A stretch of 45,805 bases of DNA from Armatimonadota bacterium (GTDB lineage: Bacteria > Armatimonadota > Armatimonadia > Armatimonadales > Armatimonadaceae): assembly GCA_026392155.1 (NCBI GenBank), contig JAPLCP010000071.1, positions 1 through 45,805 of the forward strand, read 5' to 3'. Both the position numbers and the translations under genes were made by a program. A model generated the notes under the pieces. It made no database searches. It was not told the origin of the DNA and saw only the letters and a list, made by a program, of their open reading frames with translations. Of this stretch, positions 672 through 45,805 are shown piece after piece. Numbering within the stretch: the first letter of the stretch is position 1; every line of letters begins with the position of its first letter.

Positions 672-854
672 ACTCCTGACACACCAACAGTTCCTATCTT
701 AGAATCCTTGAGTCAGTGAGAGCATAATTGCTCCCGAAAAAAAGTCTATCACATGAATAACATTCAATGCAATACTTAATCTTAAAAAATTTAGACTTTT
801 TTGTGATAGTTCTTTGACACTATCTACCCAACCGTATGGGGACAAACTTTGGGG

Positions 855-870
855 TACAATGCGGCTTATG
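855..870 (+). promoter_or_regulatory. Leaderless promoter of the ABC transporter operon
   Basis: A -10 box TACAAT (855-860) is followed by exactly seven bases and then the ATG at 868. This spacing puts the predicted transcript start on the start codon. A TTGACA at 814-819 is too far upstream to pair with it. Confidence 0.6.
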
Positions 871-3276
871 AAGCCTCTATTTCGCGTCGGTGCTGCGCTG
901 CTTGCGGCGCTGATACTCACCCTCCCCACCCTGGCTCAGAACAAGATCAAGCTTGTGGTATGGGGCTTACAGTCTGGCAAGGAAACCGCTGGACTGGATG
1001 CGCAGATCGCAGAGTTTGAGAAGCGCAACCCTGGCATCACGGTCTCCAACCTCTCAATGGGCGCGGGTACCATGAACCCCCAGAAGCTCATGACGGCCAT
1101 CGTCGGCGGCGTCCCCCCAGATGTTATCAACCAGGATCGCTTCACCATTGGTGACTGGGCGAGCCGGGGGACCTTTACACCTCTGGATAGCTTCCTCGCA
1201 ACAGAGAGCGGCCCTGATGCTGTCAAAGCGGACGACTACTACCCGGCCGCCTGGAACGAGGCACTCTACCAGGGCAAGGTCTACGCCATTCCGACAGGGA
1301 TTGATGACCGGATGCTGATGTACAACCGTAAGCTCTTCCGGGAGGCAGGCCTCGATCCCAATAAGCCGCCTAAGACCTGGGACGAGCTGCGGGACTACGC
1401 CAAAAAACTCACCAAGTACAACGCCGACAAGACCTACGCCAGTATCGGCTTTATCCCAAACTTTGGCAACTCCTGGTTCTACATCTACTCCTGGATGAAC
1501 GGTGGGAGCTTCATGAGCCCAGATGGCAAGACGTGCACCCTAGCCGCGCCTGAGAACATCGTGGCCATGACCTTTATGAAGCAGCTCTATGACGATCTGG
1601 GGGGCTACGATAAAGTCAGTGTCTACCAGTCCGGCTTCCAAGGCGGTGAGCTCGACCCATTTTTCACTGGCAAAGTGGCCATGGTGATTAACGGCGACTG
1701 GATGGTGGGCAACGTGGCCCGCTACGCCCCCGATCTGGACTTTGCCATCGCTCCCCCACCCTCACCCAAAGAGCGCATCGCCCGCAGGGGGCGTTTCGCA
1801 AATGAAAAAGATGAGCACATTACCTGGACGGGTGGCTTCTCTCTGGCAATTCCCAAGGGCACCAAGCACCCTAAGGAGGCCTGGAAGTTTATTCAGTTCC
1901 TCTCTAGTGAGGAAGGCAACCGTATCTACAACAAGGCTCAGAAAGCCTACAATGAGAAGATCGGGCGGCCCTATGTCTTCCGGCTCGCCGCCAACAAAAA
2001 TGTCAATGTGATGCTCTTTCGGGAGTTCTCCCCCGCCAATGAGCGGCTCGCGGGGGCACTCAAGGCCTACATTGACATGCTCCCCCACGCCCGCTACCGC
2101 CCCGTCACGTTTATTGGACAGAAGCTCTGGGATGCTCATGTGCGTGCCTTTGAGCGTGCTTGTCAGGGAGCGCAGACTTCTGAGGCCGCGCTTCAGGAGC
2201 AGCAAGCGCTCGTACAAAAAGAGCTTGACAAGGCCTTCGCTCGCGAGAGCCTGCCACTCTTCAACTGGACACCGCCCGTGCTGGTGTGTGCGGTTCTCGG
2301 ACTGCTCGGGGTGGGCTACGGCGCGTGGCGTGGGCAGAAACTCGTCGGCAAGAGCCGCATGGCCCGTCAAGAGGCGCTGGCGGGCTGGCTCATGGCTGCA
2401 CCGTGGATCATGGGATTCTTGGTCTTTACCCTCGGCCCCATCCTCACCTCGCTCATGCTGGCCTTCACCGACTACGATGTTCTCCACCCCGCACGTGCCG
2501 TCGGGCTGGGCAACTTCAAGGAGCTCCTCACCGACGACCGCGAGCTGATCACCAAGGCGATTGGCAACGCGACCTATCTCTCTGTGTTTGGCATCCCACT
2601 TGGGATGGTGACTGGCCTCTCGATTGCACTGCTACTCAACCAAAAAGTCAAGGGGATGAACTTCTACCGCACGGCGTTCTATATCCCCAGCATCGTCCCG
2701 GCGATTGCCAGCGCGGTGCTCTGGGTGTGGCTACTAGCAGGCGATCCCAACAAGGGCCTGGTCAATGCTCTCTGGAAAGAGACCTTCACGGCCTGGTTTG
2801 GCTGGACTCCTCCCGGCTGGTTTGGCGTCCCTGAGTGGGCAAAACCAGGTCTGATTGTCCAGGGCCTGTGGGGAGCAGGCGGCGGGATGATCCTCTGGCT
2901 GGCGGGCTTGCAAGGTGTGCCCCAGAGCCTCACCGAGGCTGCGCTAATTGACGGAGCCAATGTCTGGCAGCGCTTCCGCAACGTCACCTTGCCGCTGCTC
3001 TCGCCCTATATCTTCTTCAACCTGATCATGGGCACGATCGGTGCCCTGCAAGAGTTCGATAGAGTCTACGTCATCGGGGGCGGCGATGGTGGCACCGGCC
3101 CGCTGGACTCGCTACTGGTTCCCGTGCTCTATCTATTTAACAACGCGTTTCGCTACTTCAAGATGGGCTACGCCAGCGCCATTGCCTGGGTAATCTTCAT
3201 CATCATTCTGGGCCTGACCCTGGTTCAGTGGCGCTTGCAAAAACACTGGGTGCACTACGAGGTAGACAAGAAATGA
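868..3276 (+). CDS. Sugar-binding protein fused to MalF-type ABC permease
   Basis: Residues 1-24 form a signal peptide (MKPLFRVGAALLAALIL...LAQ). Residues about 25-455 resemble a family 1 extracellular solute-binding protein of sugar ABC transporters. A transmembrane segment at about 470-490 and a basic cytoplasmic stretch lead into a MalF-like permease (about 503-802) with the ATPase-contact EAA loop near residue 686 (SLTEAALIDGAN). Import of a sugar or oligosaccharide is inferred from the families. Binding protein and permease are normally separate genes; here they form one continuous frame of 802 codons. The start is placed at 868 because the leader begins there and the -10 box fits; 859 is an alternative ATG. 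The partner permease follows at 3464. No ATPase gene is nearby, so a shared MalK/MsmX-like ATPase elsewhere is likely. Confidence 0.88.
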   Translation: MKPLFRVGAALLAALILTLPTLAQNKIKLVVWGLQSGKETAGLDAQIAEFEKRNPGITVSNLSMGAGTMNPQKLMTAIVGGVPPDVINQDRFTIGDWASRGTFTPLDSFLATESGPDAVKADDYYPAAWNEALYQGKVYAIPTGIDDRMLMYNRKLFREAGLDPNKPPKTWDELRDYAKKLTKYNADKTYASIGFIPNFGNSWFYIYSWMNGGSFMSPDGKTCTLAAPENIVAMTFMKQLYDDLGGYDKVSVYQSGFQGGELDPFFTGKVAMVINGDWMVGNVARYAPDLDFAIAPPPSPKERIARRGRFANEKDEHITWTGGFSLAIPKGTKHPKEAWKFIQFLSSEEGNRIYNKAQKAYNEKIGRPYVFRLAANKNVNVMLFREFSPANERLAGALKAYIDMLPHARYRPVTFIGQKLWDAHVRAFERACQGAQTSEAALQEQQALVQKELDKAFARESLPLFNWTPPVLVCAVLGLLGVGYGAWRGQKLVGKSRMARQEALAGWLMAAPWIMGFLVFTLGPILTSLMLAFTDYDVLHPARAVGLGNFKELLTDDRELITKAIGNATYLSVFGIPLGMVTGLSIALLLNQKVKGMNFYRTAFYIPSIVPAIASAVLWVWLLAGDPNKGLVNALWKETFTAWFGWTPPGWFGVPEWAKPGLIVQGLWGAGGGMILWLAGLQGVPQSLTEAALIDGANVWQRFRNVTLPLLSPYIFFNLIMGTIGALQEFDRVYVIGGGDGGTGPLDSLLVPVLYLFNNAFRYFKMGYASAIAWVIFIIILGLTLVQWRLQKHWVHYEVDKK

Positions 3277-3463: not shown

Positions 3464-4774
3464 ATGAACGCATTTATTTGGCTTCTCGCGATTATCGCGA
3501 TCATCACCGCGCTGATCTACGGCGTCAGTGTGATTGTTGCAGCGGTACGGGTTCGTAATCTGGCGGCAGCGACGGTCACGGCGGCAGTGCTGGCGGGAAT
3601 GCTCGCCCTCACGCTCTTGGTGCGCTTTGCCCCAGTGAGCCTTGCTCTAGGTATCGTCGTGGCACTGGGGAGTGCGCGCTGGCTTCGGGCACTGACGCGC
3701 AATGCCTCCCATGCCAGTGAGATCACGCGGCTCTCAGCGACGCATCTAGCGCTTTTAGTGGGCTCGTTTATGTTCATGGTGCCCTTTGCATGGCTCCTCT
3801 CGACCTCCCTCAAGGCCGATGACGAGCAGGCGGTCTTTCCTCCCGTCTGGATTCCCACGCAGCACCGGACTACCGACCTCCTCAAGATGAAAGATGGCAA
3901 GCCTGCCCGGCTCTCACAAGCAACGGCAGGCGACTATGCCGGAATGCTCGTTGCTGAGATTGAGGAGCTGCCCGATGGCAAGATCCTGGTCAAGCCCATG
4001 ATCAACGAGAACGCGGTCCAAGGCATGGCCCCTCCCAGGCCCATGATGCGCAGCGAGCTCACGAAGCTTCGCCATGTCGCCCCAAAGTGGGATAACTACT
4101 CCGAGGCGCTGGCGTATCTGCCGCCGGACACGCACTACGGCCTGACGTTTTTAGGCAACACGCTCTTTCTGACGCTCATGAGCGTGCTCGGAACGCTGCT
4201 GGCCTCCTCGATGGTCGCCTACTCGTTTGCGCGGCTCTCCTGGCCAGGCCGAAATCTGCTCTTTGGGATCTTGCTCGCCACGATGATGGTGCCGGGTGCC
4301 GTGACCCTCATGCCGCAGTTCTTGATCTTCCGGAGCCTCGGCTGGATCGACACGCTCAAGCCACTCTGGGTACCCGCATTCTTTGGGTCAGCGTTTAATA
4401 TCTTCATGCTGCGCCAGTTCTTTCTCAGCATCCCCGGCGAGCTGGAAGACGCGGCAAAGATAGACGGCTGCGGCCCGTTTGGGGTCTACTGGCGCGTGAT
4501 GCTGCCGCAAGTAAAGCCCGCGCTGGCGGCGATTGCGATCATGGCCGTGATGGGCGCGTGGAACAACTTCCAGGGACCGCTGATCTATCTCAGCTCCTCG
4601 GAGCACATGCCACTTGCCTACGGGCTCCAGCTCTACCAGCAGCAACACGGCGGCGAGCCTGGCCTGCTCATGGCCGCCTCGACCATGGTCGTGATGCCGA
4701 TCATCCTTCTCTTCTTCTTCACTCAGCGCTACTTTATCGAAGGCGTCAGCCTCACAGGACTCGGGGGACGTTAA
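3464..4774 (+). CDS. MalG-type sugar ABC transporter permease
   Basis: This 436-residue protein is the second permease of the transporter that starts at 868. The EAA loop is clear (ELEDAAKIDGCGPFGVYWR, in the last third) and six core membrane segments can be placed. Two features are unusual. The N-terminus has about 95 extra residues with two or three additional membrane segments. A polar insert of about 75-80 residues lies between PPVWIPT and KWDNYSEAL, where related permeases join these motifs almost directly; it should lie outside the membrane after the first core segment. The start ATG follows the palindromic repeat directly, with only a weak GGTGA upstream, so it may be translated from the transcript of the preceding gene. 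Confidence 0.85.
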   Translation: MNAFIWLLAIIAIITALIYGVSVIVAAVRVRNLAAATVTAAVLAGMLALTLLVRFAPVSLALGIVVALGSARWLRALTRNASHASEITRLSATHLALLVGSFMFMVPFAWLLSTSLKADDEQAVFPPVWIPTQHRTTDLLKMKDGKPARLSQATAGDYAGMLVAEIEELPDGKILVKPMINENAVQGMAPPRPMMRSELTKLRHVAPKWDNYSEALAYLPPDTHYGLTFLGNTLFLTLMSVLGTLLASSMVAYSFARLSWPGRNLLFGILLATMMVPGAVTLMPQFLIFRSLGWIDTLKPLWVPAFFGSAFNIFMLRQFFLSIPGELEDAAKIDGCGPFGVYWRVMLPQVKPALAAIAIMAVMGAWNNFQGPLIYLSSSEHMPLAYGLQLYQQQHGGEPGLLMAASTMVVMPIILLFFFTQRYFIEGVSLTGLGGR

Positions 4775-4826
4775 AAAGAATAACATACTTCTCCTAAATT
4801 TATCCACTTTGTCCGAAAGAGTAAGT

Positions 4827-7169
4827 ATGAAGACACTTTTTGGGACAAGACAGGGCTGGGTGGGGATCTCCACGGTGCTCATGCTGGCGGCGCTGATCAC
4901 GGAGCGCCTAGCGCATCCGCTGGCCGCGACGCTCTTTGATGTGGCATCGGACTTCTTTAGCTTACTCGGCGTGCTCTTGCTGACGATCACGCCGCTTGCG
5001 CTGGAGGTACTGATCCATCGTGGGAAAAGTGAGGAGCTCGTGCGTTGGGGCCGAGCCTTGGGCGGTGTGGCGCTGTGCTTTGCATGGCTGCTGCACCTGA
5101 TGATGTGGCCCATCTACTGCATCGCCTGGGGTGGCCTGATCGCCGGGCCGATTATGACCCTTCAGAGCCTAACCAGCATCCCACAACATACCAAGCTTGG
5201 CGAGTCGCTCCAAGTTTGGCTCTATGGCTTTCTGGCCTACGCGCCGCTTGTCACCACGATCGTTCTGCTCTGCCAGCAAGCGTTTCTTAAGACCCTCAGC
5301 GATAGTCTTGCTCGCTCGCGGCGGATCTACTGGCTCTCCCTCACGGCGGCGGCGGTGGTATTTTTGTTGCGCCCCGCGGTGATGGGCTACCATGTGCGGC
5401 AGGCCCTGAGCACCAAGAGCGATGCCCAGCGCGAGAAATCGCTCACCCTACTGCGGCTCTTTGGCGCGGAGTACGACCTGCGAGTGCGTGCGTTCCGACG
5501 TCCGCCCACCTACCCAATGTTTCTGGCGGGTGGCGGCATCTTCACCAGTGAGATCTTTGGACAACGCGGGGAGACGCCCGACGAGGCGCGAAAGGTCTAC
5601 TTCCTGATGACGGGAACGCCGTTTAGCAAGGCCCCGACGCCGCCTGCCCAAAAGAGCCTGCTGGACCAGAACGACCAGATGCAGATCGAGGAGACGGGCG
5701 GTGAGCGGGTTGGCTCCACCATAGACGGCCTCAAGCTGGCCCTCTCGGAGCGCGAGGTGCGCTACTCCCCCAGCACCCAGACGGCGCAGACACACTGGAC
5801 GCTCGCTTTTGAGAACACCACCAGCGAGTCGCAAGAGGCCCGTGCCACGATCACGCTTCCCGAAGGTGCGGTCGTCAGCGATGCCTGGCTCTGGATCAAC
5901 GGGGAGCAGCGCCCGGCGGCCTTTGGCGGAAAAGCCCAAGTCCGTGCCGCCTACCAGGAAGTCGCCGTCGTCCAGCGCCGCGACCCGCTCCTCGTCACCT
6001 GCACCGACCCGCGCCGTGTGCTCCTCCAGTGCTTCCCCGTACTCCCCAAGAAGTCCATGCAGATCCGCCTGCAGATCACACAAACAGCGTTTGTTGGCAA
6101 GCTGACTCCTGCGCAGCTCACCGAGGTGAACTTTGAGCAGCCTAGGACGACGATCGAGCACACCAAGGTCAATGGTAAGCCCTGGAGCGGCGAAGCACTT
6201 GCCGTCGCGCCACTTGCCCTGCCCGCCGGACTCGTGCAGAAAGCGGCTCCCAATGTTGGCCCAAGCGATGTGATCGTCGCCGTGGACACGTCGGCGAGTG
6301 TCGGAGAGAAGATCGAGATCACCAAGTTAATCACCGCGCTCAAGACACTGCCAAGCGGCTCGCGGGTGAAGTTTGTCAACACCCGCATCGAAAAAGGTGA
6401 CGAGAGTGGCTGGAGCGACGCGGCGCAGGTGTCAGAGAGTTTCTTGCGCGCACAGCACTTTGTCGGTGGCGTGGACGCGGTTCCCGCCCTCAAGCGCCTG
6501 AGCCAACTTACGGAGCGCCCGACGACGATACTCTGGCTACACGGCCCCGTCCCGCAAGAGGCCGTCTCCCCCCAGCCACTCTTGGAGGCGCGGAGCCTGC
6601 ATAACAACACGCCATCGCTGGTAGGGCTCTTAGTCGCGCCGGGCCAAGATGTGGTCATGGACGCGCTGGCCACCGACAAGCGCATCCACACTCTAGAGGG
6701 CACCGACTGGCCCGCCGCCGTTCAGCGAGCCGCACAAGCCGCAGCCCGTACATTGGCTCCCCCAGGATTGGGGGCGGGGGGGGAATCCAGTGTACGGGAA
6801 GCTGTCCCACTGGGCGGACGGGAGCCTGCGCTCGGGGGCATCTATATCGCCCCCAACACGGATGCCGATAGCCAGACCGACTGGGCACGGCTTGCCGCCA
6901 CGAGCCGGGTGCTCCGCGCCTGGTACACTGGCTACGACCAAGATGCCCTCGCAAAAGCCGCTGCCCGCCGACGTCTCATCACGCCCCTCTCGGGTGCTGT
7001 CGTGCTGGAGAGTATCGAGCAGTACAAGCGTCATGGTCTTGATCCCAACAGCGGCCAGCCCCAGTCCGGTGCCCCCGATGTCGCCAGTGCCAGCGTCCCT
7101 GAACCCGGAACACTCGCCTTCGTGAGCCTTGGCGGCTTGATCTTTCTAGCACGTCGCCGAAGAAGATAG
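4827..7169 (+). CDS. Membrane VIT/vWA-like protein with PEP-CTERM tail
   Basis: The ATG at 4827 is preferred over a TTG at 4809 because GAAAGAG precedes it; this gives 780 residues. The first 190 residues hold about five membrane segments. Residues about 300-430 resemble a VIT domain (vault / inter-alpha-trypsin type), and about 478-600 a von Willebrand A-like fold (DVIVAVDTSASVGEK). The C-terminus is a PEP-CTERM sorting signal: VPEPGT, a hydrophobic helix, then six basic residues. Known VIT proteins of the MSEP-CTERM/exosortase type have a similar layout, so surface anchoring by an exosortase is inferred; none is encoded here. Residues about 638-672 are low-complexity and encoded by palindromic DNA, probably a repeat insertion. 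Confidence 0.78.
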   Translation: MKTLFGTRQGWVGISTVLMLAALITERLAHPLAATLFDVASDFFSLLGVLLLTITPLALEVLIHRGKSEELVRWGRALGGVALCFAWLLHLMMWPIYCIAWGGLIAGPIMTLQSLTSIPQHTKLGESLQVWLYGFLAYAPLVTTIVLLCQQAFLKTLSDSLARSRRIYWLSLTAAAVVFLLRPAVMGYHVRQALSTKSDAQREKSLTLLRLFGAEYDLRVRAFRRPPTYPMFLAGGGIFTSEIFGQRGETPDEARKVYFLMTGTPFSKAPTPPAQKSLLDQNDQMQIEETGGERVGSTIDGLKLALSEREVRYSPSTQTAQTHWTLAFENTTSESQEARATITLPEGAVVSDAWLWINGEQRPAAFGGKAQVRAAYQEVAVVQRRDPLLVTCTDPRRVLLQCFPVLPKKSMQIRLQITQTAFVGKLTPAQLTEVNFEQPRTTIEHTKVNGKPWSGEALAVAPLALPAGLVQKAAPNVGPSDVIVAVDTSASVGEKIEITKLITALKTLPSGSRVKFVNTRIEKGDESGWSDAAQVSESFLRAQHFVGGVDAVPALKRLSQLTERPTTILWLHGPVPQEAVSPQPLLEARSLHNNTPSLVGLLVAPGQDVVMDALATDKRIHTLEGTDWPAAVQRAAQAAARTLAPPGLGAGGESSVREAVPLGGREPALGGIYIAPNTDADSQTDWARLAATSRVLRAWYTGYDQDALAKAAARRRLITPLSGAVVLESIEQYKRHGLDPNSGQPQSGAPDVASASVPEPGTLAFVSLGGLIFLARRRRR
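6745..6798. repeat. Palindromic G-rich insertion inside the VIT protein gene
   Basis: CCCGTACA at 6745-6752 pairs with TGTACGGG at 6791-6798. Between them, CCCCCA and TGGGGG form an inner hairpin, followed by a run of eight G. A related G-rich palindrome (CCGCCCC/GGGGCGG) lies just after this gene at 7179-7204. The stretch encodes a Gly/Pro-rich segment and keeps the frame. Confidence 0.6.
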
Positions 7170-15454: not shown

Positions 15455-17242
15455 ACTACTGAAAGAGGCCAGGTCTCGCCCTCAAAAGAGATCGAAATAG
15501 AATTGCACGAAAATATTGTTCTCGCCAAGCGAGAGATCACAGACAACCTGGATCAAATCCTCGCCGTCTTACCGGAGCGGGTGCTCGCCGCTCTGGCGCC
15601 GCACTTAGAGGAACACTCCGATCTTTTGGAGCTGGTGCTTGACCTAGGTCGCCCTGCGGAGGCGCGCTTTGGCAACAACCTCCAGATCGAGCTCCTGCCT
15701 GCCAGTGACGATCCCCTAGATCCGGCCAACGAGGTGACCCTGGACGATATTGCCCATATCACCAGCCGTATCTCGGACTTTGGCTTCGACAACCGCGCCG
15801 GGATCGAGCGCACGCTCCACCGCATCTCCTGCATCCGCAACCGTGGCGATCATGTGATCGGGCTGACGCTGCGTATTGGCCGCGCGGTCTATGGCACCGT
15901 GGACATTATCCGGGACATTGTCGAGAGCGGGAAGTCTATTCTCATGCTGGGCCGCCCCGGTGTGGGCAAGACCACCAAGCTGCGCGAAGTGGCCCGTATT
16001 CTCTCCGCAGAGTTTCGCAAGCGCGTCGTGATCGTGGACACGTCCAATGAGATCGCGGGTGATGGTGACATCCCGCACCCAGCGATTGGTCGCTCGCGGC
16101 GCATGCAGGTCAAGCGGCCTGAGGAGCAGCATGCGGTGATGATCGAAGCCGTCGAGAACCACATGCCACAGGTGATCGTGATAGACGAGATCGGCACTGA
16201 GCAGGAAGCCTTCGCCGCCCGCACGATCGCGGAGCGAGGCGTCCAGCTTGTAGGAACAGCGCACGGCAATACCCTGGAGAACTTGCTGCTCAACCCGACC
16301 CTCTCAGACTTAGTTGGTGGTATCCAGACCGTGACCCTGGGCGATGAAGAGGCCAAGCGGCGTGGCTCCCAGAAAACGGTGCTGGAGCGCAAAGCCCCTC
16401 CGACTTTCGAGGTGATTATCGAGATCCTGGAAGTGGATAAGCTCGCCATCCACCACGATGTTGCCAAAGTGGTGGACAAGATGCTCCGTGGCCAGCTCCC
16501 GCGCCCCGAGATTCGCGTCCGCAACACGGGTGGCATTGTCGAGGTCGTGCAGAAAGCCGAGCTCCCCCCGGACCGTCCGGGGGAACAGACCGGCGGCACG
16601 TATGGAATGACCTTTGACCCAGAACCTACCCCTTACTCCCCTTCCTTGGAACAGGGAAGGGGCCGGGGGATGGGCTCTGGGATGGGCTCTGGGATGGGCT
16701 CTGGGATGGGCTCTGGGATGGGTTCAGAGCGTGGGACGGGTACGGAGCGCAAAAGCTTCCGTCAGGAGGGTAAAACCGTTCACCTGTTCCCCTACGGCGT
16801 CTCCCGCTCCCGCCTAGAGCGGGCGATGGTCAATCTTCGCGTGCCAGGAGTCGTGGCTAGGGACATGAAAGATGCGGATCTGATTGTCGCGCTCAAGGCC
16901 ACGTCGCGCCGGGAGCCCGCCAAGCTCCACGAGGCACGGGGCAAGAACATCCCGACCTATATCGTCCGTAGCAACACCTACATCCAGATCGAGAGTGCGC
17001 TTCGTGAGGTCTTCGGCCTCCAGCCCACCGTGCTCCCCACCGATGAAGAGGCCGCGATCTCCGAAGCCTCAGATGCCATTGAGCATGTGCAAGCCACCGG
17101 TGAGGCCGTCGAGCTTGCACCACAAAATGCGTATGTCCGGCGCTTGCAACATCAATTAGTGGAACGCGCCGAGCTGGGCAGCGAGTCCATCGGCGTCGAA
17201 CCACGGCGGCGTCTGAAGATCTTGCCCAGCATAGCCGTTTAA
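15452..17242 (+). CDS. AAA ATPase with R3H domain (SpoIIIAA/Ycf45-like)
   Basis: The ATPase domain is SpoIIIAA/Ycf45-like: Walker A GRPGVGKTTK near residue 167 and Walker B QVIVIDEIGTEQEA near 240. A DADLIVALKATSR to IPTYIVRSNTYIQIE block follows in the C-terminal third, and an R3H single-stranded nucleic-acid-binding motif ends the protein (AYVRRLQHQLVER...GVEPRRRLKI). Such proteins are thought to act on nucleic acids; the precise role is unknown. Residues about 369-430 are a low-complexity linker encoded by palindromes and a 12-bp tandem repeat giving MGSG units. The only good start is GTG at 15452, next to a TATAAT. At 596 residues it is longer than typical relatives mainly because of this linker. 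Confidence 0.88.
   Translation: MTTERGQVSPSKEIEIELHENIVLAKREITDNLDQILAVLPERVLAALAPHLEEHSDLLELVLDLGRPAEARFGNNLQIELLPASDDPLDPANEVTLDDIAHITSRISDFGFDNRAGIERTLHRISCIRNRGDHVIGLTLRIGRAVYGTVDIIRDIVESGKSILMLGRPGVGKTTKLREVARILSAEFRKRVVIVDTSNEIAGDGDIPHPAIGRSRRMQVKRPEEQHAVMIEAVENHMPQVIVIDEIGTEQEAFAARTIAERGVQLVGTAHGNTLENLLLNPTLSDLVGGIQTVTLGDEEAKRRGSQKTVLERKAPPTFEVIIEILEVDKLAIHHDVAKVVDKMLRGQLPRPEIRVRNTGGIVEVVQKAELPPDRPGEQTGGTYGMTFDPEPTPYSPSLEQGRGRGMGSGMGSGMGSGMGSGMGSERGTGTERKSFRQEGKTVHLFPYGVSRSRLERAMVNLRVPGVVARDMKDADLIVALKATSRREPAKLHEARGKNIPTYIVRSNTYIQIESALREVFGLQPTVLPTDEEAAISEASDAIEHVQATGEAVELAPQNAYVRRLQHQLVERAELGSESIGVEPRRRLKILPSIAV
16565..16726. repeat. Palindromes and 12-bp tandem repeat inside the ATPase gene
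   Basis: CCCCCGGAC (16565-16573) and GTCCGGGGG (16575-16583) form a near-perfect palindrome. Positions 16617-16680 are the reverse of the family repeat at 3296 (C-rich arm ending CCTTCC, then GGAAGG, then CCGGGGGATGGG). From 16667 the unit GGGATGGGCTCT occurs four times exactly and once with changes, to 16726. All of it stays in frame. Confidence 0.8.
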
Positions 17243-42797: not shown

Positions 42798-42820
42798 GCA
42801 CCTTGGCCCCCTGTGATTGA

Positions 42821-42913
42821 GGGATAGTCTTCAGGATCGGGCATTGACCCGGCCGGGGCGCTGGTGACGGGCGTAACCGAGAGCATATTTCCTACCGCCC
42901 GATCCTGCATCCC
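42821..42913. other. Long GC-rich inverted repeat, possible terminator or RNA
   Basis: CAGGATCGGGC (42832-42842) pairs perfectly with GCCCGATCCTG (42897-42907). Outside it GGGAT (42821-42825) pairs with ATCCC (42909-42913). The 54-base interior includes GGTGACGGGCGTAACC, which can fold further. It lies 24 bases after the epimerase stop. It could end that operon, but the loop is large for a terminator; a small structured RNA is possible. The boundary to the AT-rich island is directly to the right. Confidence 0.45.
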
Positions 42914-42924
42914 ATCAGGCGCTG

Positions 42925-43291
42925 ATTCTAGTGAATAAATGTTCGATTCAAAACCGACAGGTTATTATATTTTTAATTGACGGCATAGCAGCCTCCTTCC
43001 GAGTTGTAGTATATTCCTATCGCACAAGGTAACTGTACATTGCCTCCCGATCTCCTTTGACTCCCATGTAATGCATTCCCTTCGATATGTGAAGAAAACC
43101 CAATGTGTTGTGATACTCACCCTATTGCATGTAGTGCTCACCCGATGACATGTGGTAAAAGTACAGGACTCTGTAATACCGATTAAGCAGTACATAACAA
43201 TTTATATTCACTCCATGACTTCTTTCATTCCTCATTTTACTTTAGTATCACCATTATTCCCAGCCCTTTTTTCTCTTTACTAAAACTTAAT
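42925..43291. other. AT-rich stretch without a recognised gene
   Basis: I see no convincing coding region in these 367 bases. A minus-strand open frame of 76 codons (42965-43195) is mostly translation of the 21-bp repeats and has no ribosome site. The stretch contains the five degenerate repeats at 43060-43164 and then a T-rich run up to the promoter at 43292. Confidence 0.55.
43060..43164. repeat. Five degenerate 21-bp repeats
   Basis: Units are 43060-43080, 43081-43101, 43102-43122, 43123-43143 and 43144-43164. From base eight of each unit the pattern is roughly TGTRRTNNTNACCC, e.g. TGTAGTGCTCACCC and TGTGATACTCACCC; the last unit is the weakest. Phase and length match the repeat at 618-671 (GTGGGATTTCACCC). 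Twenty-one bp equals two helical turns. Confidence 0.6.
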
Positions 43292-43321
43292 TTGACAAGA
43301 AGTCCTACTCCTGGGTATACT
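43292..43321 (+). promoter_or_regulatory. Promoter cassette, copy 1
   Basis: TTGACA (43292-43297), an 18-bp spacer containing TCCTACTCC, and TATACT (43316-43321). The spacer and the sequence beyond it are shared with the cassette at 45494, including the motif TATAAAGT downstream of the 17-bp repeats. Confidence 0.75.
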
Positions 43322-43325
43322 CTTC

Positions 43326-43410
43326 ATCAGCGGAGCCGCAGTATCAGCGGAGCCGCAGTATCAGCGGAGCCGCAGTATCAGCGGAGCCGCAGTATCAGCG
43401 GAGCCGCAGT
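43326..43410. repeat. 17-bp tandem repeat, five exact copies
   Basis: The unit ATCAGCGGAGCCGCAGT occurs five times in a row, 85 bp in all. It begins five bases after the -10 box, so the array makes up most of the 5-prime leader of the gene at 43432. Each unit contains GCGG-AG-CCGC. Confidence 0.95.
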
Positions 43411-43431
43411 CGTATAAAGTGAGGTGTTGCC

Positions 43432-44622
43432 ATGCGGTTGGTTTCGACCCTGATGAAAAGTCTGTTTCTTCTCCTACACATCGCTATCGTGCTCTGTGTA
43501 AAGCCCGCTCTGGCCCAAGGTGGCCCCGCAGGAGGTGGTACAAGTGGAAATGCCTATCCGTGCCTCGCGAATGTAACTATAGAAAATGGATACCGATGTG
43601 CCAACAACCAAGGGGTTGCTTACAACTATCCTCAAGTCTACAAGACACATCTCGATGCATCGAACAACAGCATTGTAGACCACCAAGACCCGATGGCGGC
43701 AAAGATAGGAACGACACTTAATGTCACCTTAAATGTAACACGATCCACACTAGCACAGAATAATTTTACAGGCACCCTAACAATCACTGCCGAGTATTTT
43801 ACTAATGGAGGTATGGTTTCAGTTTCCTGTAGCAATATCACACCGATCTCTAACTTAATGCCTGGTCACTCTACCAATGTCACATTTTCACTAGGAGCAC
43901 TTCCAAACTATGTCACAAAAGGTGATTTAGTCATTTTCTTTAATGGAGATGGTTATATTGATGGAATGTACGAGGAAAAATTATATCTTCTAAAAGATCA
44001 ACCCATTAACTGCATGGCTATCCCTTGGGTGGGCGTCCTAGAAGATTCATGCACTTGGGCATCGGGGGAATCAGATCCCTTAGGAGTCATAACTAAGATT
44101 TCGCACGGACTCTATACAAGCCAAACTTTTTTTTATGATAGTACACAGACCCTTGCGCTAGCAACTATTCCTGCGAACATATTTGATTTAGTTCAGTTTT
44201 TATGTGTTAGTGATGGCGGCGGCAGACCTATCCGAGGTCAATGCTATGACGCAAGTGACTATGCAGCGATATGTCTTTACTCACAAGGTAGAGGGGCGTA
44301 TATACAGTACAGAGCAGGAGATGTACCAGGTAGACAACCGAACGATCCTTACGGAACGTTCCTTACGAACCTAGGCGTGTTGATTGGACATAACATATTG
44401 TCACAATTAGAATGGGCAAATCATCAACTGGTAATACTTCTCAATCAAAATATATCTGACCCAACTATTGGCCTATTTGTTCCTTATGCTGTCTCACCCG
44501 CAGTAAATGTAACCCAAACAAATTACTGGGCACCGTCATCATCTAGCCTAGTAGCTCCATATGAGTTAACACCTGTACAACAAGGAAGCAATATCCAAGT
44601 TACAGTTCTTGGATTCCCATAA
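43432..44622 (+). CDS. AT-rich secreted protein of unknown function
   Basis: The 396-residue protein has a clear signal peptide (basic start, LFLLLHIAIVLCVKPALA, cleavage near ALAQG). The mature part is rich in Asn, Thr, Gly and Tyr, with many NXT/NXS patterns and eight or so Cys residues, including YPCLANVTIENGYRC near the start; disulfide-bonded beta structure is likely. No domain is recognised. The ribosome site GAGG lies seven bases before the ATG. The promoter with five repeat units points to special control. Base composition differs sharply from the epimerase operon to the left. Confidence 0.75.
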   Translation: MRLVSTLMKSLFLLLHIAIVLCVKPALAQGGPAGGGTSGNAYPCLANVTIENGYRCANNQGVAYNYPQVYKTHLDASNNSIVDHQDPMAAKIGTTLNVTLNVTRSTLAQNNFTGTLTITAEYFTNGGMVSVSCSNITPISNLMPGHSTNVTFSLGALPNYVTKGDLVIFFNGDGYIDGMYEEKLYLLKDQPINCMAIPWVGVLEDSCTWASGESDPLGVITKISHGLYTSQTFFYDSTQTLALATIPANIFDLVQFLCVSDGGGRPIRGQCYDASDYAAICLYSQGRGAYIQYRAGDVPGRQPNDPYGTFLTNLGVLIGHNILSQLEWANHQLVILLNQNISDPTIGLFVPYAVSPAVNVTQTNYWAPSSSSLVAPYELTPVQQGSNIQVTVLGFP

Positions 44623-44648
44623 ATTAACACTCTCAAAAAGGTAAAATA

Positions 44649-44882
44649 ATGCTTACTATCATAAACCCAGCCATCATGCAGGAGCAACAGCCCTCTCTTA
44701 CATTCCGAGATCCAGAGTCAATAAAAGTAAAACCAGGCCCGACGATTTCGCGTGCCGACTTTGACTTAATTATCCCAGAACAGAATGAATTATCGGAATT
44801 CAAACTTGTTACTAGATTATTTCATAAATCTGACAATCCTCCCCAGCCCCATCGCCCCCTGACTCAAGTATTGAACTACTAA
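44649..44882 (+). CDS. Small AT-rich protein of unknown function
   Basis: A 77-residue protein without signal peptide or membrane segment, rich in Pro, Gln and charged residues. AAAAAGG seven bases before the ATG is a fair ribosome site; TAAAAT (44642-44647) in the same place could be a separate -10 box, but would leave only one base before the start. It follows the secreted protein gene by 26 bases and is probably on the same transcript. No family is recognised. Confidence 0.5.
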   Translation: MLTIINPAIMQEQQPSLTFRDPESIKVKPGPTISRADFDLIIPEQNELSEFKLVTRLFHKSDNPPQPHRPLTQVLNY

Positions 44883-44920
44883 AAAATAGTAGATTCTATT
44901 CTTTTTATACTATTAGTTAT

Positions 44921-45340
44921 ATGCGAGATTCAGATAAACTGTTTTTATCAATTGACATAGCTATTTCACTCAATCCAGATGATGCAGGATTAGCTTCAAT
45001 AATTTCACCTTCGAGTGCTCCTAGAGATACCTCAAAGAAAAGTTCATTTACAGGGAAGCCAATTGGTAAATATGCTTGGTCGCATCCCAGTTCACTTATT
45101 GTGGCTGACCACTGGGTTCTCATGAAGCTACAATTCAGATCTAAACCGATCAAAAATCCTGATGGGAGTTTTACTTTTCCTCCTATCTCGGATGGAGATA
45201 AGGCTTGGGCTGAGGAAATGGGACGGAAGATTCTGGATCGGGCTACGGTTCTGGGATTGACGAGTCGGCCTGCGGAGAGTGCTCCTCTTTGGGCGAAGGA
45301 GCAAGTGGCGAAGCGGCGGGCAGAGCAGAAGAGGCAGTAG
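44921..45340 (+). CDS. Unknown protein with AT-rich front and GC-richer end
   Basis: A 139-residue, probably soluble protein. The front half is encoded by AT-rich DNA; from about 45180 the coding sequence becomes GC-richer and the protein turns helical and charged (DGDKAWAEEMGRKILDRA; EQVAKRRAEQKRQ). A box TACTAT (44908-44913) lies seven bases before the ATG, fitting the leaderless pattern of the window. A longer minus-strand frame over the same region looks like a shadow. The change in composition suggests a junction between island and core DNA. Confidence 0.55.
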   Translation: MRDSDKLFLSIDIAISLNPDDAGLASIISPSSAPRDTSKKSSFTGKPIGKYAWSHPSSLIVADHWVLMKLQFRSKPIKNPDGSFTFPPISDGDKAWAEEMGRKILDRATVLGLTSRPAESAPLWAKEQVAKRRAEQKRQ

Positions 45341-45383
45341 CGCTTCATGGGAGAGAGGATCGCTCGTCGGGTACACTTTGCCT

Positions 45384-45446
45384 GTGGGCATCCTCTCTTC
45401 TGCGCCTCACCCGGCCCTGCGGTGGCTCTGGATCGGGGCGAGATAA
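45384..45446 (+). pseudogene. Possible truncated gene start behind a leaderless promoter
   Basis: GGGTACACT (TACACT 45372-45377) lies six bases before a GTG at 45384, the same layout as functional genes in this window. The frame encodes only 20 residues (GILSSAPHPALRWLWIGA) before TAA at 45446, where the sequence turns AT-rich. It may be the surviving front of a core gene cut by the island. The protein is too short to name. Confidence 0.3.
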
Positions 45447-45493
45447 TAGGTAGGATCGGTGAAAGACAGGGTTCCCTAATCCCTAAACCATGC

Positions 45494-45552
45494 TTGACAA
45501 GGAATCCTACTCCCCGGTACACTCTGAGTCAGCGCAGCCGCAGTAGTATAAA
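45494..45552 (+). promoter_or_regulatory. Promoter cassette, copy 2, with one repeat unit
   Basis: TTGACA (45494-45499), an 18-bp spacer and TACACT (45518-45523), then a single variant of the 17-bp unit (GTCAGCGCAGCCGCAGT) and GTATAAAGT ending at about 45554. Over some 50 positions it matches copy 1 with few differences. Confidence 0.7.
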
Positions 45553-45555
45553 GTA

Positions 45556-45805
45556 ATGAATATTTATAAAAATAATATATTAATTACTTTATTATCACTA
45601 TTAATCTTAGATTCAAATAAGACAGCTAGATCACAAGAGGTTATTGAAAATGCAGATGTAATTTTACCCCGTCCTGAAGAGTATATTGGCTTCAAAATCA
45701 GACTAATCCGAGGAAATTTAAAATTTCCAAAAGAAGAAAATGCTGGCAACATTCATAATTTTGAAATAAAAAACGAATCAACAGGATGCAATATAGGTAT
45801 AAATT
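45556..45805 (+). CDS. Partial AT-rich secreted protein of unknown function
   Basis: 83 codons are visible before the window ends. The start ATG follows TATAAAGTA directly. A hydrophobic N-terminus (ILITLLSLLILDS) ending near TARSQ suggests export. The mature part begins EVIENADVILPRPEEYIGF and is Asn/Lys/Glu-rich. No domain is recognised. The gene shares its upstream cassette with the gene at 43432, although the visible protein sequences are not obviously similar. Confidence 0.65.
   Translation, partial: MNIYKNNILITLLSLLILDSNKTARSQEVIENADVILPRPEEYIGFKIRLIRGNLKFPKEENAGNIHNFEIKNESTGCNIGIN

Follow-up and report, generated by a model that had tools for sequence, protein, structure and literature searches.

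The window, the whole stretch of 45,805 nucleotides analyzed here, is contig C141 of its own assembly (4.77 Mb, 228 contigs), and the region of interest lies at its 3' end. Three genes are found there on the forward strand. Gene A (43432..44622) codes for a secreted two-domain protein, gene B (44648..45340) is its partner, and gene X (45556..45805) is an AT-rich ORF whose translation has a signal-peptide-like start and is cut by the contig end. Genes A and X are each preceded by a copy of the same predicted promoter. The G+C content of the contig end (42750-45805) falls from about 60% to 38-52%, as in recently acquired or mobile DNA.

The gene A product, of 396 aa, comprises a signal peptide, a β-sandwich N-domain and a transglutaminase-fold core. 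An AlphaFold2 model made from an input of 28 family members reached a pTM of 0.73, and its best Foldseek matches are the transglutaminases TG2, TG3 and factor XIII, with E down to 1e-8 and whole-chain TM-scores of about 0.4. The core contains a Cys-His-Asp triad that is near-invariant in the family alignment (C271 in 31/31, H331 and D343 each in 30/31). The predicted fold, with its N-terminal β-sandwich and core, and the triad are common to gene A and the transglutaminase superfamily, which includes the three enzymes named above and the bacterial transglutaminase-like cysteine peptidases; unlike that superfamily, gene A has no usable match in Pfam or NCBIfam, nor one in PADLOC, and shows about 12% identity to solved structures. 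No curated Pfam/NCBIfam transglutaminase model matches several tested family members, defence-system models gave no match, and a sequence-profile search of solved structures returned nothing convincing. Gene A would specify an exported transglutaminase-fold enzyme with putative catalytic activity.

Of 291 genomes of the phylum, 33 proved in a protein search to contain relatives of gene A, often two to five each. In a peptide-pattern search of 84,980 species no relative was confirmed, and all family data therefore come from the phylum search. Within the genome of the window itself, a profile search for further members gave marginal matches only. Matches of an N-domain profile in 15 genomes were mostly the known family genes with the transglutaminase core, along with short fragments and a few weak matches; an N-domain joined to another type of C-terminal domain was not found among them. 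On one contig of genome G211 (C598, L045), three enzyme-partner units are arrayed in tandem within 9 kb, and the enzyme gene of the third has a stop codon.

Gene B was recognized through partner homology. Its 3' part (44921-45340) is homologous to the partner genes that lie beside relatives of gene A, and a phmmer search against a small set relates it to the G211 partners (34 bits). Its frame is broken around 44840-44880, which may be an assembly error or a real lesion. Across the family, a partner gene with a product of 180-360 aa lies within about 70 bp downstream in about 34 of the 39 genes, and 31 of the 39 downstream ORFs have a hydrophobic start. By sequence, the partner proteins form three large clusters, with a few singletons left over. 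Their predicted architecture is an N-terminal α/β domain, followed in many members by a tail weakly like the copper amine oxidase N-terminal domain (Pfam E 0.04). A partner model with a pTM of 0.66 has weak matches only, mainly to TiME and the PknH sensor domain (E 0.006, prob 0.97).

The two promoter copies of the window had been singled out in a preliminary description, made from the sequence alone, as a shared cassette in front of unrelated-looking secreted-protein genes. Both sites indeed have the same order of elements: TTGACA, an 18-bp spacer with TCCTACTCC, TAYACT, CAGCGSAGCCGCAGT and TATAAAGT. In an ungapped alignment from TTGACA through TATAAAGT, the sequences at 43292 and 45494 agree in 51 of 61 bases. 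The next-best unrelated site in the 45.8-kb window reaches 32/61 and the reverse strand 30/61, the one exception being a shifted register of the repeat described below (38). The likeness of the two copies ends a few bases 5' of the gene X ATG. Copy 1 is a predicted sigma-70-type promoter, TTGACA-N18-TATACT (43292..43321, forward strand), and copy 2 reads TTGACA-N18-TACACT (45494..45523, forward strand). Their hexamers score 11/12 and 10/12. The number of promoter-like sites in the sequence is not above that in shuffled controls, and the element is, by its hexamers, a putative promoter.

The dissimilarity of the proteins behind the two promoters also holds: a BLASTP comparison gave E = 10, with gene X known for 83 residues only, up to the contig end. 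No relative of gene X was found in the phylum. A reading of gene X as a second partner gene was rejected, the likeness seen by eye failing and the profile score lying below shuffled controls.

A search of the assembly showed the whole front a third time, on contig C97, so that the genome has three copies of the promoter. Among 290 other genomes of the phylum the pattern occurs only with two to three mismatches, nothing closer than ordinary promoters, and exact matches number zero in the 84,980 species genomes and viral contigs, a collection in which records of the genome studied here may be absent. The second of the two available genomes of the genus has neither the promoter nor gene A. A widespread promoter cassette with many copies, as first envisaged, is rejected on these searches. 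Nor does the locus present the case for which simple duplication had been set as the explanation, namely two copies only, followed by ordinary paralogues over their full length: the third copy exists, and the catalytic domains behind the fronts have diverged.

In the leader of gene A, downstream of the -10 box and ahead of the ribosome-binding site, a repeat scan detected the 17-bp unit ATCAGCGGAGCCGCAGT five times in perfect tandem (43326..43410, forward strand). The C97 leader has about eight units, spaced at 17 and 18 bp, while gene X is preceded by one diverged unit (45528..45544, forward strand, from the repeat scan and genome search) and then by TATAAAGT at 45547-45554. With at most one mismatch, the unit occurs nowhere in the 4.77-Mb assembly outside these three fronts. 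Tandem repeats between promoter and start codon, varying in number among copies (here 5, 8 and 1), are a trait of repeat-controlled, phase-variable loci. An RNA model predicts that neighboring units pair with each other and that a unit can also pair with the start-codon region AUGCGGUU. Over the range of 0-10 units, the model leaves the AUG mostly open when their number is even and mostly paired when it is odd (accessibility about 0.62 versus 0.12), an alternation equaled by one of 60 shuffled units. For the natural leaders, the modeled AUG accessibility is 0.13 with five units and 0.36 with eight, the last of which is mutated. The repeats may tune expression; the switch is a lead only, because accessibility averaged across the whole ribosome-binding window barely moves (0.33-0.41). 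In Haemophilus influenzae, more 7-bp repeats at hmw1A lower expression, and swapping of binding domains has been discussed for hmw1A/hmw2A (PMC8262952). Those loci resemble ours in having paralogous exported proteins and promoter-region tandem repeats of varying number; their repeats are 7-bp with a measured effect, whereas here they are 17/18-bp and the effect is modeled.

It could be argued from these leaders that the front is an expression device and nothing more, a promoter with a repeat-counted leader forming a contingency locus for a few envelope genes, with the mosaicism described below being incidental. The variable repeat number, the pairing of the unit with the start-codon region with its odd/even alternation, and the presence of the promoter module before the unrelated gene X all agree with this. 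Against it stand the restriction of the front to three copies in one genome, the nearly constant mean accessibility of the ribosome-binding window and the homologues in other genomes, upstream of which no comparable leader array was found and which nevertheless display the same protein mosaic. We consider this explanation unlikely.

The informative pair is gene A and its C97 paralogue, whose likeness is graded. Upstream lies duplicated DNA common to both contigs (42848..43214, no strand assigned), with 81-85% identity in the best part of the pairwise alignment (42966-43165). It includes the decayed start of a divergent gene, of which the window keeps a remnant and C97 a longer version (ORF 1683-2234). 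A non-similar stretch separates this DNA from the promoter. The homogenized front (43284..43530, forward strand), comprising the promoter, leader and signal-peptide codons, is near-identical except for the repeat number: 1 of 56 positions has changed in the promoter block, and 99 of 100 agree in the signal-peptide block. Both flanks of this tract are far more diverged than the tract itself. Codons 1-32 have no changes at 26 synonymous sites, as against 48 changes at 109 sites in codons 33-186 (dS 0.67, dN 0.08; Fisher p 4e-6). After the near-identical front, DNA identity is 77-88%, and the likeness fades from about 43990. There the variable part of gene A begins (43990..44622, forward strand, residue 187 onward, delimited by the change point); it includes the core with all three triad residues. 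In the amino-acid sequence, the change point falls at residue 187, with 133 of 154 residues equal before it (from residue 33) and 41 of 118 after it. Identical residues are encoded by the same codon in 89/130 cases before and 13/40 after this point (p 8e-5). Hence, synonymous sites too change state at the domain junction. Overall, the N-domains are about 85-86% identical and the catalytic cores about 33-35%.

The proposal of a fixed front with differing coding parts is accordingly borne out by the C141/C97 pair and by other genomes of the phylum, not by the A/X pair on which it was first based. The expectation that identity ends at the start codon fails, as the fixed part of the C141/C97 pair reaches the domain junction near residue 187. 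In the genes for the vsp/vpma variable lipoproteins of mycoplasmas, too, a constant 5' untranslated region and signal-peptide code precede coding parts that are dissimilar (PMC2268961). That system uses site-specific inversion to a single promoter (PMC2268961), whereas the copies described here have their own promoters, lie on separate contigs and code for predicted enzymes. Reading the window ORFs by eye, we noticed no recombinase, and 42800-45805, a region cut by contig ends, contains one imperfect inverted repeat.

The C97 core is nearer to G211 proteins (47-48%) than to the window core (33%). A sister grouping of the window and C97 cores was not rejected in AU tests (p 0.45, 0.47). The C97 gene is truncated by a mobile element, which we take to be IS5-like; its protein ends before the histidine, making it a broken copy, and no partner gene is present there for comparison. 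The unrejected sister grouping of the cores, the cut and partnerless state of C97 and the broken frame of gene B all count against a modular reading of this locus. Since the sister grouping was not rejected, the window and C97 genes may possibly be an old pair that diverged fast and had its front converted later.

The family at large could likewise be explained by ordinary old duplication, with a catalytic domain evolving fast under relaxed or positive selection, recent conversion of the front only, and no exchange of cassettes. The near-identical tract with diverged DNA on both sides, the unrejected sister grouping of the window-pair cores and the upstream homology to C97, which indicates a segmental duplication, are as this explanation would have them. 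The comparisons within other genomes speak against it. For paralogue pairs picked from genomes with several copies, paralogue numbers per genome being small, we measured the share of identical residues that have the identical codon, before and after the break. This share drops from 105/110 (0.95) to 19/82 (0.23) in G183, from 136/144 (0.94) to 33/85 (0.39) in G070, from 157/168 (0.93) to 79/147 (0.54) in G211, from 173/196 (0.88) to 39/85 (0.46) in G141, from 125/167 (0.75) to 34/114 (0.30) in G118 and from 58/60 (0.97) to 62/166 (0.37) in G138, with p for the break from 4e-13 to 3e-27 across these six; the drop in G125 is weaker (p 0.003). By these codon counts, paralogues in at least six other genomes have a synonymously conserved front followed by a saturated, divergent catalytic domain.

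Most breaks fall at residues equivalent to 174-228 of gene A, several of them at 192-201, the passage from N-domain to core. The break in G138 is earlier, its fixed part being the promoter, the signal peptide and a short stretch, and 355 bp across the upstream DNA and gene start are 96% identical. The three N-domains of G183 form one clade (100/99), and a single clade for the corresponding three cores was rejected (AU p 0.015, to be taken with caution given the long branches). In the same genome, two units (L048/L049) are 99% identical over 189 bp of upstream DNA; in one of them, the open frame extends much further ahead of the common signal peptide. Saturated synonymous sites in the cores next to little-changed ones in the N-domains of several pairs, independent genomes breaking at one domain junction and the rejected sister cores of G183 all weigh against old duplication, as do the partner genes.

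Comparison of paralogues shows the partners to be as saturated as the cores along most of their sequence. Codon identity is regained in their last part: 31/34 and 9/10 in G211, 26/35 and 26/39 in G118, 22/30 in G070, 30/33 in G183 and 14/20 in G125. Downstream blastn blocks are also present between paralogue loci in G118, G141, G211, G125 and G070. As the partner is saturated like the core and its tail regains homology, the variable segment consists of the core and most of the partner, set between constant flanks. We regard old duplication as a rather unlikely account of the family.

We therefore favor, as probably correct, the reading that the window end is one unit of a modular two-gene family, in which recombination keeps the flanks alike while the core and most of the partner vary. 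The products of genes A and B would be, respectively, an exported transglutaminase-fold enzyme and its likewise exported partner. Homologous recombination would keep the gene A front, made up of promoter, leader, signal peptide and N-domain, alike among paralogues, and in several genomes it would do the same for the gene B tail, with the middle differing strongly. Either the flanks would undergo gene conversion or the middle would be replaced, and the data favor neither route. The repeated promoter would then be the outermost piece of the gene A front, and a further copy of this promoter precedes gene X.

As to the function of the pair, the gene B product might bind and restrain the gene A protein in the manner of an immunity factor or inhibitor, and antagonism might select for diversity of the enzyme-partner pair. 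We prefer this role for the partner tentatively, as a possibility that falls short of even odds, and for the family as a whole, conflict or immunity is the putative function that we rank first. Transglutaminase folds crosslink or deamidate proteins. Gene B could instead be a substrate, chaperone or maturation factor of the enzyme, for instance a crosslinked matrix protein, the pair diversifying with surface chemistry and not through conflict. The adjacency of the two genes, the predicted export of both products, that chemistry and the α/β domain with its tail weakly like copper amine oxidase would suit such a role. The strong joint divergence of gene B and the core would be more usual for antagonistically coevolving binding partners, and we hold the substrate or chaperone role to be doubtful.

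The closest parallels to the preferred reading, with a putative immunity partner, are the polymorphic toxins, in which a single recombination event delivers a new toxin end and the matching immunity gene at once, and among whose known toxin types are transglutaminase and papain-like domains (Zhang et al. 2012, PMC3482391). As in those systems, gene A has a constant 5' body and a 3' catalytic end probably varied by recombination behind the conserved N-terminus, and the adjacent gene changes too (PMC3482391). Polymorphic toxins carry many unrelated C-terminal domains, whereas all gene A variants keep one transglutaminase fold; furthermore, the N-domain does not correspond to any trafficking domain described, and the partner tail regains homology. 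The toxin likeness is known here from sequences, with a linked, co-diverging partner present whose immunity role is putative. In Vibrio cholerae, T6SS effector-immunity modules need no specific integration sites, as their exchange proceeds by homologous recombination (PMC5361080), and we propose module exchange by homologous recombination here as well. Unlike in that system (PMC5361080), no secretion apparatus is linked to genes A and B in the stretches examined. A bolder version of the conflict reading, which we think improbable, would see an undescribed conflict system of the phylum, with exported effectors and cognate exported immunity partners, the pair exchanged as one cassette between fixed flanks, and odd or even leader repeats masking or exposing the start codon as a translational switch.

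The gene family, for which Pfam and NCBIfam hold no usable match, is one in which an enzyme core and its neighboring partner vary jointly while their flanks stay constant. Should the partner prove to be an immunity factor, the family would amount to an effector-immunity repertoire built on one fold, with natural pairs at hand in G183, G070, G118 and G211. If it is not, nature would still have provided in this family a clean example of domains exchanged across two genes at a defined junction.

The IS5-like terminal sequence that cuts the C97 gene (L023, 1-140) is also found on contigs C116 and C145. On C116 (L087), the element spans about 4433-5590, has a transposase ORF of 320 aa and disrupts a further secreted gene, of thioredoxin/DsbA-like type (L087:3916-4479); two tandem copies of the element's outer end are found there. 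Elsewhere in the window, an 820-aa ORF (814-3276) reads as an unusual-looking fusion of a sugar-binding protein to an ABC permease and is followed by a second permease ORF. At 16667-16722, a perfect 12-bp tandem repeat of 4.7 copies within an ATPase-like ORF gives rise to a GMGS repeat in the protein.
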